Assembly: GCA_028691715.1 (NCBI GenBank)
Contig: JAQUYR010000006.1
Coordinates: 1-34,630 of the forward strand
Direction of reading: 5' to 3'
Source of the DNA: Bacilli bacterium
GTDB lineage: Bacteria; Bacillota_I; Bacilli_A; ML615J-28; CAG-698
Length of the DNA: 34,630 nt
How positions within the stretch are numbered: position 1 is the first letter of the stretch; each line of letters starts with the position of its first letter. Shown piece by piece: positions 16,478-24,895 of this stretch. The notes under the pieces were generated by a model. The model saw only the letters and a program-made list of their open reading frames with translations, searched no databases and was not told the origin of the DNA. The position numbers and the translations under genes were made by a program.

Positions 16478-18304
16478 TTACTTCCTCCTAAATGGTAGAA
16501 AAAAACCGATAGCAATTCCTAATAATCCCAATACTAAAGAAATATAAATATTGTAATCATCATCAACTGCCTTTGGTGACACTAAATTTAAAGTGGTTTT
16601 TTCTCCACTAGAGGTATCTTCAGTTTCTCCATAAAATTTTATATCTACTGCTAATTCATCTGTTATATCTCCTATATCAATTGCCATTTTCCTGACGGAG
16701 AAAGTTAAATAACTTTTTTCATTATTCCCAATTATTTCTAAAAGATATGTTCCTTCGTTAGGGCAACAATACCCTGATTCTATTCTTTCATTATTTAAAT
16801 ATCCACTACCATTAAAATAAAGAGGGACATTTATATCATAGACACCTTTATTATCTATGTTAACAATTAAAGGTATTTCTTTTATAATTGGTATTACAAA
16901 AGTATAGTCACCACAGGAAAATTCATAAAGTCTTTCATATGTTCCAAAATCCATCAATTCTTTTTCTGGAGCTAGTGCTTTCCCTGCTACATAAATACCA
17001 TTAAGTGAAATAGCTGTTTCCTCTATTTTTATATTGACGTAACTCTCTAGATATGGGGAAAATATACTTCCTTTAGAATGAGAGCCACCAATATATACTA
17101 GCCTATTGATCAAATATACATCGGTTATTTTGTCACCACTAAAAGAATTTATTCTTCGCGAGTATATATTTTCCAAATTATAGTTTAAAATGTTTATTTG
17201 CTTGTAATATTTATTACCATTTTTAATGTCCAAGGCAATAGTAATGTAATCACTAAATGAAATTTTAAAATTTGTGAATCGTGAGTTATCACTACAGACA
17301 TTAATCTTTCTACTACCAATAAAATTTAACTCCTTATCAAAAGTAGTAAACAGAAGACTATAATCCCAATAATTATTGCTTATGATTACTAATTTATCAT
17401 CTGATATTTTCATTTTGGATAGTTCCTTTATCGGATATTCTTCAATACTAAGGTAATCAGTATATTCAAGGAATTCATCGATTACAAGAATTGCCTGAAA
17501 ATCCTTGCCCAGCGGAGAAGAAAAATAACCCTCGCCACAAAACCTTAAATATGCATAGAGTTTCCCATCAAGCATTTGAGCATCGTAAAAAATATTATTG
17601 CCATTGTTACCATATAGATTTAACTGGTATTCATTAAAATTGTCTTTACTAACAAATCCAGCTACAATGTCTAAATTATTACCATCATTTGACAAGAAAT
17701 GTCCATCATTAGCATATGTTGTCCCTATGAAGTAGTATTTATCCTGATAATCAAATACCCTATATCCATAGCTATTACCATTACCATAAAAATCTATTTT
17801 ATCTTTTAGACCGCCATTTTGAGAAAATTTAGCGACCACAATCATATTCTTAGTTGTTTTCATCTCATAATTACCAGTTATTACTAAATAGTCATCATCA
17901 ATAATAGCATCTCTGATTTTTCCATATCCCCAATCATCCAGAATCTTTTCCCAAAGCAAAGTTTCGTTTTCATAATAGGCAATGTATGGGAATTCCCGAA
18001 GGTTTTCAGTCTCGTATGGGTGATTACCATTATCAATTGAGCCAATTATATAATAATCGTGCTCATTAACAGACAGCACCTTTTCCACATTGTAATCAAA
18101 ATTCTGATTCAAGATAAAGAAGTCTTTAGAGAATTCCACTCCTTCGTGATATTTCTCTTTATCGACTTTTATGATTTCAACATCCTCATTATAATATTCT
18201 TCAACATCTTCTTCATCTGCTGTTGTAATCACAGTTTGCTTGATTTCGTTATTTGTAATTGATGGCAAGGATAAAATTAATAAAATTAAAAGCAATTTTT
18301 TCAT
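16478..18304 (-). CDS. Predicted surface-anchored protein, propeller-like N-terminus and Ig-like region
   Basis: Signal peptide MKKLLLILLILSLPSITN, C-terminal TM LVLGLLGIAIGFFLPFRRK. RBS AGGAGGAA upstream of ATG 18304. Confidence 0.75.
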   Translation of the reverse strand: MKKLLLILLILSLPSITNNEIKQTVITTADEEDVEEYYNEDVEIIKVDKEKYHEGVEFSKDFFILNQNFDYNVEKVLSVNEHDYYIIGSIDNGNHPYETENLREFPYIAYYENETLLWEKILDDWGYGKIRDAIIDDDYLVITGNYEMKTTKNMIVVAKFSQNGGLKDKIDFYGNGNSYGYRVFDYQDKYYFIGTTYANDGHFLSNDGNNLDIVAGFVSKDNFNEYQLNLYGNNGNNIFYDAQMLDGKLYAYLRFCGEGYFSSPLGKDFQAILVIDEFLEYTDYLSIEEYPIKELSKMKISDDKLVIISNNYWDYSLLFTTFDKELNFIGSRKINVCSDNSRFTNFKISFSDYITIALDIKNGNKYYKQINILNYNLENIYSRRINSFSGDKITDVYLINRLVYIGGSHSKGSIFSPYLESYVNIKIEETAISLNGIYVAGKALAPEKELMDFGTYERLYEFSCGDYTFVIPIIKEIPLIVNIDNKGVYDINVPLYFNGSGYLNNERIESGYCCPNEGTYLLEIIGNNEKSYLTFSVRKMAIDIGDITDELAVDIKFYGETEDTSSGEKTTLNLVSPKAVDDDYNIYISLVLGLLGIAIGFFLPFRRK

Positions 18305-18365
18305 AACCGTAGTTCCTCCTATATTCATATATTAGGAATAAAAGCAATTTTTTATTTTTATAATT

Positions 18366-21186: not shown

Positions 21187-21489
21187 ATGAACAAATTCAT
21201 TATTATGCTAATAAAAAAGTATCAGGAAGCAAAAAGCGAAGATAGCCGTAAATGGTGTCGATATAGTCCAACATGCTCCAATTATGCCATTGGAGTTTTC
21301 AGTAAATTCAATTTTTTCAAGGCTTCTTTTTTAACAATTTATCGAATACTGCGTTGTAATCCCCTTTCCAAAGGAGGATATGATCCCGTTCCTCTATCTA
21401 AAAAGGAAAAAAGAGAATTAAAAAATTCTCTTAAAAAAACTGACGACATCTTGCCAAAGGTCGATGAAAAACCAAGCGATCTTTTGTAA
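21187..21489 (+). CDS. yidD: Membrane protein insertion efficiency factor YidD
   Basis: LIKKYQEAKSEDSRKWCRYSPTCSNYAIGVFSKFNFFKASFLTIYRILRCNPLSKGGYDPVP. Confidence 0.93.
   Translation: MNKFIIMLIKKYQEAKSEDSRKWCRYSPTCSNYAIGVFSKFNFFKASFLTIYRILRCNPLSKGGYDPVPLSKKEKRELKNSLKKTDDILPKVDEKPSDLL
21405..21432 (-). terminator. Terminator of the minus-strand surface-protein gene, embedded in the yidD coding sequence
   Basis: AAGAGAATT-TTTT-AATTCTCTT followed by TTTT on the minus strand. Confidence 0.7.
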
Positions 21490-23049
21490 TAGGCCTTCCT
21501 CTTCAACATCTTCATCAAGATTTTCAATGATATTGATTTGTAATTCCAATTCCTCTCCTTCAACATCTAAAACTATTTTATATGTTCCGGGAGTTTTTTT
21601 ATTTTCACTATACTCATCAGTAATTATTTCGTAACTTATTCCCTCTTTTATAGTTTGAGTTCTCTCTAAAAAGTCAACAAAATCGCTTATTTCCATTGTA
21701 TTATTGCTTAAATCGATATTTATTACCTGAGTATCAATCAAAAAAATCGGGCTTGTTTTGTCGGTGACTGTGATTGTTATCTCCTGAGCTTTTTGGTTAT
21801 TGTTATTATCCTTTACCAATAATCCCACTTTCCACGTTCCAATACGAGTTGTTGAATAGGTATAATAATCATAGGCAACTGTTACTCTATTAGTGATAAT
21901 TCCATCAATATTGTCTGTGACCACTATATTATTAATTATATCCTGGATAGTCAATTTTTGATTATTAGCAATTTCATAGGTGAATGTTCCTGAAAATGTA
22001 GGGGGAATATTATCGTAATAACTAACGACAACACTAACCGAATACTCAGCAATATTTCCTGCAGTGTCAGTTGCTGTAAAAACGATAAGATAAGTTCCTG
22101 GTGTTGCATAATTACTGGTATAGTTATCAGTCTTCACAGCAATTGATGGTGTGACATCCCCATCATAATTATCATTAGCACTTAATCCTGCTTCAATGTT
22201 GGATATTTCAATCTTGGTCAATTGATTTGTTGTATAACTATTTTTACCAGTAATGATGGGAGCACTCATATCCATAACCATGACAAAAACAGAAAAATTT
22301 GTTGTATTATTACTACTGTCTGTCACCGAAAAGACAATTTCATAAGTCCCAATTTCATTCATATGATTGATATAATCATTTTTGGTGACGATTATTTGAG
22401 AAGTTATATCCCCATCATTATCATCCATCGCAATAACTGAAGAACGAATTGTTGAAAAAGAAACGGGATTTTCAAAACTCGTTATATAAAGTCCATTATT
22501 ACCACTGATGACTGGGCTGTAATCTACACTTGGTCCCTGATATATTAAATCATTGACACTTAGGCTCGAATAAAAAGCATAATCGGTTCCTTCAATCATT
22601 GAATAGTTATATTCAATGCGGTATAACTCTAGATTAGCCCCATATTCCTCCATAACTGCCATTTCTAATGTTATATACTTTGTTTCATTGGTAGTTGTAA
22701 AGGTATAATATTCATCCTCACCAGCAATATTTAATTCAGTAGTTAATTGGTTAAGTAATTCCTTATCACTGTTATAATGATAAACAGTCACTCCTAGTAA
22801 TTTTCCCTCTTGATAGTTATACATATTGACCATATAACTAGTGCTCGCTTTAACCCGAATATAGTTTAAGCAACTGACCGTTCCATAATTAATGGGATCA
22901 CCAACTGTATATGTGAAGTTACTATCCTCTAAATAATTATAACCGCTGGGAATGAATTCCCAATTCGGTAAACTACTATTTGCTTTAACAACAGGAATTG
23001 ATAAAAATACTAAAACAATTGTAATTATCGATATGCATATTTTTTTCAT
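21418..23049 (-). CDS. Secreted surface protein with repeated Ig-like (DUF5011/HYR-like) domains
   Basis: Signal peptide MKKICISIITIVLVFLSIPVVKA; repeats of the form SANDNYDGDVTPSIAVKTDNYTSNYATPGTYLIVFTATDTAGNIAEYSVSVVV. RBS GGAGAAGAC supports ATG 23049. Confidence 0.82.
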   Translation of the reverse strand: MKKICISIITIVLVFLSIPVVKANSSLPNWEFIPSGYNYLEDSNFTYTVGDPINYGTVSCLNYIRVKASTSYMVNMYNYQEGKLLGVTVYHYNSDKELLNQLTTELNIAGEDEYYTFTTTNETKYITLEMAVMEEYGANLELYRIEYNYSMIEGTDYAFYSSLSVNDLIYQGPSVDYSPVISGNNGLYITSFENPVSFSTIRSSVIAMDDNDGDITSQIIVTKNDYINHMNEIGTYEIVFSVTDSSNNTTNFSVFVMVMDMSAPIITGKNSYTTNQLTKIEISNIEAGLSANDNYDGDVTPSIAVKTDNYTSNYATPGTYLIVFTATDTAGNIAEYSVSVVVSYYDNIPPTFSGTFTYEIANNQKLTIQDIINNIVVTDNIDGIITNRVTVAYDYYTYSTTRIGTWKVGLLVKDNNNNQKAQEITITVTDKTSPIFLIDTQVINIDLSNNTMEISDFVDFLERTQTIKEGISYEIITDEYSENKKTPGTYKIVLDVEGEELELQINIIENLDEDVEEEGLLQKIAWFFIDLWQDVVSFFKRIF

Positions 23050-23152
23050 GTCTTCTCCTATTTTTAGATATTTAAAGACATTTCTCACACGTTTACTAAA
23101 GTATATCATATTTTTGTAAATATCAACAGACGATTTTTTTATTTCAAAGTAA

Positions 23153-23193: not shown

Positions 23194-24432
23194 TCAATTT
23201 TGAGGGGCAGGGGTTTCCAATTTCTTTTTGCCGTGAGGCTCAATTTCAATTTCTCCTGCTTTCTTCAGAGCAAACTTAGTAGCGATAGGACCAATTAATT
23301 CATAGAATAAAGTCGCACATAAGACAACTGCTAAAATCTGGCTTGAATATTCGGTAAGTGATTCCGAAGCAATCTTAGCCATACCAATAGCTACACCAGC
23401 TTGAGGTAATAGGGCAAATCCCAAATATTTTTTAACATGCTCATCTTCTTTAACGATAGCTGAGCCAAAATAGGCACCAAAATATTTACCACCCGAACGA
23501 GCTAGTAGATAAACTATACCGATAATTCCAACTGTTGGAATTACTGTTATGTCCAATTCAGCACTAGAAATAATGAAGAATAACATGAATAGTGGAGGTG
23601 TCCAACGTTCAATGCCATCCATAATGCGGAATGAATCATTATTAGTATTACAGAATACAGCACCAGTCATCATACATAATAATAATGATGATACCTCTAT
23701 TGGTAAAATCTCACAAATACCAACACCAGCTAATACGACGGTAATCATCCATATTAAACGGTTAGCCCTTGATTTGAAAAATCTTGTAGCAAATGAAAGG
23801 ATAAGTCCTAAAACAGCTCCAATTCCTAAAGACACTATTATCTCAAATAATGGCATCAATGCTACACTATTAAAACTAATAGTCTCACCATTAGCGAAGA
23901 CCTTAGCGATAGCAAAAGAAATCGCAAATAAAATCAAACCAAAAGCATCATCAAGTGCTACTACTAATAGTAGAGTATCGGTTACTTTACCACGAGCTTT
24001 ATATTGTCTGACAACCATCAATGTTGCTGCTGGGGCTGTAGCAGTGGCTATGGCTCCTAAAACAAGAATCAATGGTAAGTTTTCATTGAATGTTCCTTTG
24101 ATTAAAAAAACGATCATTAAAGAAATATTAACGAAAACCAAGGCGAGAAAAGCTTGTAAAAAAGTGATCAAGAAAACTTTTTTACCAATTTTCTTTAAAT
24201 GTTCTATTTTGAATTCTCCACCAATGGAGAAAGCGATGAATCCTAAAGCAACATCAATAAGCAAAGACAAACTAGAAACTTCTGCTTCACCCATGATTTT
24301 AAAGCAATAGGGTCCAATTAATAAGCCAACGATTAAATAGCCGGTTACATTTGGTAACCTAATTAATTTCATTAATCTTGTAGATAATAAACCCGCAAGT
24401 AATGCTAAAGTTATTGTTAATAATATAGTCAT
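23194..24432 (-). CDS. CPA2-family cation:proton antiporter (KefB/Na+-H+ exchanger-like)
   Basis: About 12 TM segments; LPNVTGYLIVGLLIGP, GFIAFSIGGEF, ATATAPAATLMVV, VVALDDAFGLILFA. Confidence 0.9.
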   Translation of the reverse strand: MTILLTITLALLAGLLSTRLMKLIRLPNVTGYLIVGLLIGPYCFKIMGEAEVSSLSLLIDVALGFIAFSIGGEFKIEHLKKIGKKVFLITFLQAFLALVFVNISLMIVFLIKGTFNENLPLILVLGAIATATAPAATLMVVRQYKARGKVTDTLLLVVALDDAFGLILFAISFAIAKVFANGETISFNSVALMPLFEIIVSLGIGAVLGLILSFATRFFKSRANRLIWMITVVLAGVGICEILPIEVSSLLLCMMTGAVFCNTNNDSFRIMDGIERWTPPLFMLFFIISSAELDITVIPTVGIIGIVYLLARSGGKYFGAYFGSAIVKEDEHVKKYLGFALLPQAGVAIGMAKIASESLTEYSSQILAVVLCATLFYELIGPIATKFALKKAGEIEIEPHGKKKLETPAPQN

Positions 24433-24440
24433 ACTATCTC

Positions 24441-24773
24441 TTATTTAATGCCCTCCGCAAAACTAACAGGTAAAGAATACATAAATCCTTTATCAGCGAT
24501 ACCGTTTGTAGCTTCATTTACCAATCTGCACAAAGTTTTGACTTCTTCATCATCCTTTACTACAATAAATAACATCGGACGAGAATCTTGTGTATAATTC
24601 ACTACTCTAGAGATGCCACCAAATATTGGACCTTCATCAATGTTAGAGTTCAACAAAGCATCTTTTATGCTCATTGTTGTTAAAACACTGCCATGAAAGC
24701 TGTTCTCTGAAAGTCTCTTCAATATTTTAGGCATATATTCACCTTTTACTAATACTGTTATAAACAATTGCAT
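24441..24773 (-). CDS. PII-like small regulatory protein
   Basis: Starts MQLFITVLVKGEYMPKILKRLSENSFHG; ends FIVVKDDEEVKTLCRLVNEATNGIADKGFMYSLPVSFAEGIK, matching the PII pattern V.D..V..v...i..A..tG.igdGkifv.PV.....i. Confidence 0.6.
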   Translation of the reverse strand: MQLFITVLVKGEYMPKILKRLSENSFHGSVLTTMSIKDALLNSNIDEGPIFGGISRVVNYTQDSRPMLFIVVKDDEEVKTLCRLVNEATNGIADKGFMYSLPVSFAEGIK

Positions 24774-24803
24774 GTGACAATTCCTTTCTAAATGTATATC
24801 TAT

Positions 24804-24862: not shown

Positions 24863-24895
24863 AAAGACATGCTTTATATTAAAAAGCATGTCTTT
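24863..24895 (-). terminator. Terminator after phosphatase gene (stem works in both directions)
   Basis: AAAGACATGCTTT...AAAAAGCATGTCTTT inverted repeat. Confidence 0.8.

Follow-up and report, generated by a model that had tools for sequence, protein, structure and literature searches.

What might a small PII-like protein be doing when its gene directly precedes that of a cation:proton antiporter? This arrangement occurs on contig JAQUYR010000006.1 of a Bacilli bacterium; the whole stretch analysed, hereafter the window, comprises 34,630 nucleotides. The PII-like protein, of 110 aa, is encoded at 24441–24773 on the minus strand, and the gene of the antiporter, of 412 aa, follows on the same strand at 23194–24432 after a gap of 8 nt. 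This is the layout given in a first-pass annotation of the DNA, and the protein end that it quoted, LVNEATNGIADKGFMYSLPVSFAEGI, is found in the ORF translation. A probable ribosome-binding site (AGAAAGGAA, 24781–24789, minus strand) lies 7 nt 5′ of the ATG of the PII-like ORF. The promoter proposed earlier was also located: TTGAAA-16-TATAAT (24831–24804, minus strand), 5′ of the PII-like gene, matches the consensus at 11 of 12 positions and is the top-scoring promoter-like site of the region, although the region shows no overall enrichment of such sites (11 found versus 8.4 expected). A hairpin scan recovered the terminator claimed to follow the pair, as a terminator-like hairpin 3′ of the antiporter gene (23183–23155, minus strand), and detected another belonging to the upstream gene (24863–24895, minus strand), which isolates the unit; in total, three terminator-like hairpins were found in the region against 0.8 expected. 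Because such hairpins flank the pair on both sides, it looks like a compact, self-contained two-gene unit.

Upstream of the pair lies a gene for a metallophosphatase surface protein and downstream one for an Ig-like surface protein, and neither neighbour has a tie to nitrogen metabolism. Elsewhere in the window, yidD (21187–21489, plus strand) and the gene of the Ig-like surface protein (21418–23109, minus strand) are convergent, with yidD overlapping the 3′ end of the latter by approximately 70 nt, and a 616-aa ORF with no Pfam match (16478–18328, minus strand) adjoins the acetate kinase gene.

We assessed the fold of the small protein through its homologues, structure prediction, and profile-profile comparison. 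Searched alone against the Pfam P-II model (PF00543), it scores 13.6 bits (E = 0.086), below the cut-off of 25; some homologues exceed this gathering cut-off (33.8 bits for L136 and 28.9 bits for L263), and the best family member matches P-II with E = 1.4e-10. The PII fold is a ferredoxin-like fold of beta-alpha-beta-beta-alpha-beta topology with the T-loop between strands 2 and 3. This topology is seen in both AF2 models, one for the window protein (pLDDT 84) and one for the member from Clostridium ganghwense (72 sequences; pLDDT 88), and with either model Foldseek retrieved GlnZ, GlnK, and PII structures at a probability of 1.00 (E 2e-5 to 2e-6). The PII fold that the first-pass annotation had read from the sequence is thus upheld by structure prediction and profile comparison. 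The window protein represents a type, hereafter type I, that joins the whole antiporter-linked family at 99.9% probability in profile-profile comparison. The family as a whole is closest to PII-like proteins linked to DUF1538 (97.9%, E = 3e-13), followed by canonical PII (88%) and DarA (17.7%); for type I, the hhalign probability against DarA is 1.8%. Taken together, these results place the window protein in the PII superfamily. No NCBIfam model covers the antiporter-linked PII family.

The sequence of the family departs from canonical PII at the ATP site. Both the B-loop motif TGxxGDGKI and the C-terminal RIRTG are absent from the family and from the window protein. Positions aligned with the B-loop read P[DNG]TGI.F in most members and DKGFMY in the window protein, which stops short of the RIRTG equivalent, ending at residue 110 with no Cys tail. 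The family signature instead consists of G-A-T-I-x-x-S-x-G-M, P-x-F-G-S-L-R/K-x-L-L in the T-loop region, and P-x-T-G-I-x-F-T-x-P-V near the end; in type I, a divergent branch, HG-S/T-V and KGFMYSLP stand at the corresponding places. In the family alignment, the part of the T-loop region around F51-G52-S/G53-L/I54 is conserved. Since the strand-2 Thr (T30, aligned with the Thr of the canonical GMT) is 96% conserved in the family, with Ser in the window protein, an adenine nucleotide is a plausible ligand as judged from the alignment. Nucleotide binding is not assured given the missing TGxxGDGKI and RIRTG, and the loss of Lys and Arg residues suggests that a triphosphate would be held otherwise than in canonical PII.

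The partner was described in the first-pass annotation as a CPA2 cation:proton antiporter. Its membership of the antiporter superfamily is clear from the match to PF00999 (E = 7e-32) and the Asp-Asp motif VVALDDAFGL, and among chains of solved structure its sequence comes nearest to the Na+/H+ antiporter 4czb (E = 6e-4). The subfamily is less secure: against the NCBIfam CPA2 model TIGR00932 the protein scores 43.3 bits (E = 3e-11) where the cut-off is 238.3, such that it appears akin to, yet outside, the curated subfamily, and its assignment to CPA2 on this basis is weak. A simple pattern match also finds the Asp-Asp motif in 110 of the 136 partner antiporters of the family. We take this motif of NapA-type antiporters to fit electrogenic Na+/H+ exchange, with which the window antiporter would be consistent, its ion being unproven. 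A Pfam scan of the window antiporter, C-terminal part included, found no RCK domain and no other cytoplasmic domain.

The first-pass annotation had named two outcomes that would refute it, a fold unrelated to PII and homologues not regularly found beside antiporters; neither was observed, and the pairing of the two genes is reproducible. In a survey of the window's order (43 genomes, 79 PF00999 genes), all 32 clear family members, comprising 31 intact genes and one decayed copy, lie within 400 bp of a PF00999 gene on the same strand. Weaker PII matches away from antiporters in this order (E > 1e-6) were considered as possible GlnB proteins; those examined proved to be DUF1538-linked tandem PII genes. 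A wider set comprised 180 distinct members from Bacilli, Clostridia, Aerophobetes, and Spirochaetes; a narrower alignment search returned 219 relatives, and a named-genome search with the window protein as query gave no match. In the wider set, 146 members adjoin a CPA-type antiporter gene, nine head Mrp operons, and 25 are near neither; the first fraction (81%) is not an unbiased rate, since the 180 members are related by descent and were gathered by similarity to antiporter-linked seeds. The intergenic gap has a median of 2 nt and start/stop overlaps are frequent, while among the best 30 Clostridia loci all 30 adjoin a PF00999 gene. With the chance of random placement estimated at less than 0.5% per gene, the full linkage within the order, together with the range of phyla covered, goes far beyond coincidence. 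A divergent PF00999 gene (L263, E = 1e-62) likewise has a PII partner.

The association also extends beyond what had been claimed, to a second antiporter class and to a domain fusion. Nine members (L136, L139, L149, L158, and L220–L224), from Aerophobetes, Spirochaetes, and one unclassified bacterium, head operons for Mrp (CPA3; MnhE-F-G-B-C), a multi-subunit antiporter unrelated to PF00999. At eight of these nine loci, a PTS_EIIA_2 gene sits between the PII and MnhE genes. In five loci of Spirochaetota, PTS_EIIA_2 and PII domains are fused into proteins of 272–279 aa encoded directly 3′ of a PF00999 gene (L226 1483–2301; L227 1486–2325; L228 1012–1833; L229 1483–2304; L233 1483–2307). Longer apparent fusions in the spirochaete loci L225 and L234 (614 aa and 419 aa) and in L223 (309 aa) seem to arise from read-through of open frames that overlap or lie upstream and were not counted. 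Cation/proton antiport is the element common to the PF00999, Mrp, and EIIA-fusion settings, and this is the strongest functional evidence available for the family.

We compared the pair with known systems in which a PII-type protein is encoded with a transporter. The nearest relatives found, the DUF1538-linked PII-like proteins, are likewise encoded directly beside a membrane protein. Their partner, however, is DUF1538 (PF07556) rather than an antiporter, they occur as two unequal tandem copies rather than one, and their loop reads GGT-[IV]-xx-[AG]-R-[GS] in place of GATI-xx-S-x-G-M; they are the sister group of the antiporter-linked family and, like it, apparently uncharacterised. At L321 and L323–L326, for example, two unequal tandem PII-like genes lie directly 3′ of DUF1538 genes. 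GlnK-AmtB shares the PII fold, the pairing with a membrane transporter gene, and a likely direct gating, but its partner is a trimeric ammonium channel, whereas the family of the window protein lacks both the GDGKI B-loop and the RIRTG C-terminus; in addition, no linkage to amtB or glnA was seen among the family neighbours checked, where antiporter genes occur instead. In the SbtB-SbtA system, too, a small PII-like protein and a secondary transporter are encoded together, and SbtB, once it has bound a nucleotide, controls SbtA (PMC10710835). The partner there is a trimeric bicarbonate symporter, in contrast to the PF00999 antiporter here, and it is by this partner that SbtB was set apart. Two leads from the literature were set aside: BB0017, from a Borrelia paper citing PII work, is a YitT/DUF2179 protein of a different family, and a Fibrobacter match concerns amt-glnK.

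On this evidence, we consider it probable that the ORF encodes a PII-superfamily regulator, likely ligand-binding, that is dedicated to the co-encoded Na+(K+)/H+ antiporter. The protein would form a PII-type trimer and bind, in the inter-subunit cleft, a small ligand from the cytoplasm, for which an adenine nucleotide is plausible. The region equivalent to the T-loop, with its conserved amphipathic P-x-F-G-S-L-R/K-x-L-L, may then dock, depending on the ligand, on the antiporter's cytoplasmic face, and docking would either raise or lower Na+ (or K+)/H+ exchange. Gating of the antiporter by a nucleotide or cyclic nucleotide, as first proposed, is what we infer from these features. CPA antiporters are dimers, and the symmetry mismatch with a PII trimer counts against the docking model as its main structural puzzle. 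A review describes the known transporter targets of PII as trimeric and PII control as seemingly limited to trimeric transporters (PMC10710835).

An alternative, which we regard as doubtful, is that the PII-like protein senses c-di-AMP, as DarA/PstA receptors do, and sets the antiporter according to this nucleotide. Precedent exists for CPA antiporters controlled by a cytoplasmic nucleotide-sensing RCK/KTN module, namely KefC, CpaA, and KhtTU, and the RCK_C-bearing CpaA and KhtTU are set by c-di-AMP; c-di-AMP also controls K+ and Na+ homeostasis in Firmicutes, which favours such a receptor here. The window antiporter lacks an RCK domain of its own, such that the sensor module, in contrast to the RCK/KTN-gated antiporters, would be the separate PII-like protein. 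Diadenylate cyclase (PF02457) is encoded in 58 of 60 relatives, including the genome of the window, but so near-universal a presence discriminates nothing. DarA/PstA proteins (PF06153) do share a PII-like fold and an occurrence in Firmicutes. Against this, the family of the window protein falls outside the DarA profile, its profile-profile similarity to DarA being poor beside that to canonical PII, and the DarA motif GGFL is absent; moreover, the genome of the window encodes a separate, genuine DarA (PF06153, E = 3e-34). Given this DarA and the missing motifs, c-di-AMP is a possible ligand that we do not favour. An apparent link between DarA and an antiporter on contig C33 of genome G030 was discarded, as a divergent LysR-type gene intervenes.

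Somewhat less likely still is that the PII-like protein acts on one or more other cytoplasmic targets and shares an operon with an antiporter that it does not directly regulate, the two genes being joined by a common stress need. Members that stand alone are compatible with this explanation. The Ruminococcus-type members (L148, L150, L152, L154, L155, and L157), which carry a long charged C-terminal tail, lie between LytR-like and rimP-nusA genes with no antiporter in the vicinity; the PII gene at L145 (4001–4351) is directly 5′ of an ATP synthase operon (AtpI onward), in the place of the antiporter; and some members adjoin EIIA alone. Antiporters closely related to the partners also occur without PII, at five loci (L188, L196–L198, and L201). 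Conversely, linkage spans two unrelated antiporter classes as well as the EIIA fusion, and the PII tree tracks gene order, its five context labels needing 10 changes compared with about 60 when shuffled. The antiporter tree similarly places the antiporter-first order in approximately one clade and the PII-first order in another. Distances between PII proteins correlate with those between antiporters (r = 0.67, 136 pairs), but we dropped this mirror-tree result as proof of contact, since shared ancestry alone can yield such a correlation.

The antiporters that lack a PII partner count against the preferred reading of a dedicated PII regulator and also bear on what such a regulator would do. The PII gene of the sister species G001 (L015 1501–1740) has decayed, with internal stops and approximately 95 nt missing, and the antiporter gene downstream retains an open frame encoding a 76% identical protein. 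G001 also has a second pair, in antiporter-first order (L030). From this decay and the close antiporters without PII, the antiporter can evidently persist and work alone, and this speaks for PII as a modulator, perhaps an inhibitory one, rather than as an essential subunit. On the antiporter tree, the sister clades without PII consist of longer antiporters. The longer, PII-less antiporters of 482–497 aa at L168, L194, and L294, in the same genomes, are followed by a gene for an MgtC-family membrane protein, which is perhaps another kind of antiporter partner.

PII-NG proteins, described as a proteobacterial clade, are non-canonical PII proteins (e.g., GSU2134) that adjoin a proton-driven cation exporter, CzcABC (PMC7726332). 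CzcABC differs from the partner here in being an RND tripartite pump for divalent metals, and no RND metal exporter genes (czc/cus, to which PII-NG is linked) were found among the neighbours scanned. While the PII-NG precedent beside CzcABC proton/metal antiporters (PMC7726332) would suit a CutA-like or PII-NG-like metal sensor that gates the antiporter by a divalent cation, this is very improbable in light of the monovalent-type PF00999 partner and of a family alignment in which no Cys or His column is conserved.

A broader form of the preferred reading, in which the PII-like protein is a dedicated antiporter regulator, has in our judgement about an even chance of being correct. The family would then be an undescribed PII branch serving as a general, exchangeable regulator of Na+/H+ (or K+/H+) antiporters of both CPA2-like and Mrp types; in spirochaetes it would be joined to EIIA, such that ion homeostasis is set by the PII ligand together with PTS state, and it would provide the first case of PII control over dimeric transporters. 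Among bacterial metabolic sensors, the PII proteins are the best known, and textbooks cover how they control the transport of ammonium and bicarbonate. Their reported associations comprise AmtB, SbtA, and ABC transporters, and PII-NG beside CzcABC (PMC10710835, PMC7726332). The open full-text papers searched contained no report of a PII protein paired with CPA or Mrp antiporters; since all preprints and most subscription papers lie outside this coverage, novelty is provisional. The pair would test the claim that PII control seems limited to trimeric transporters (PMC10710835), and it is directly testable, being small and having cultured hosts (Paracholeplasma vituli and Clostridium ganghwense). 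If the proposal is true, Bacillota, Aerophobetes, and Spirochaetes of the gut and the environment would have their pH and salt homeostasis under a PII-type sensor.
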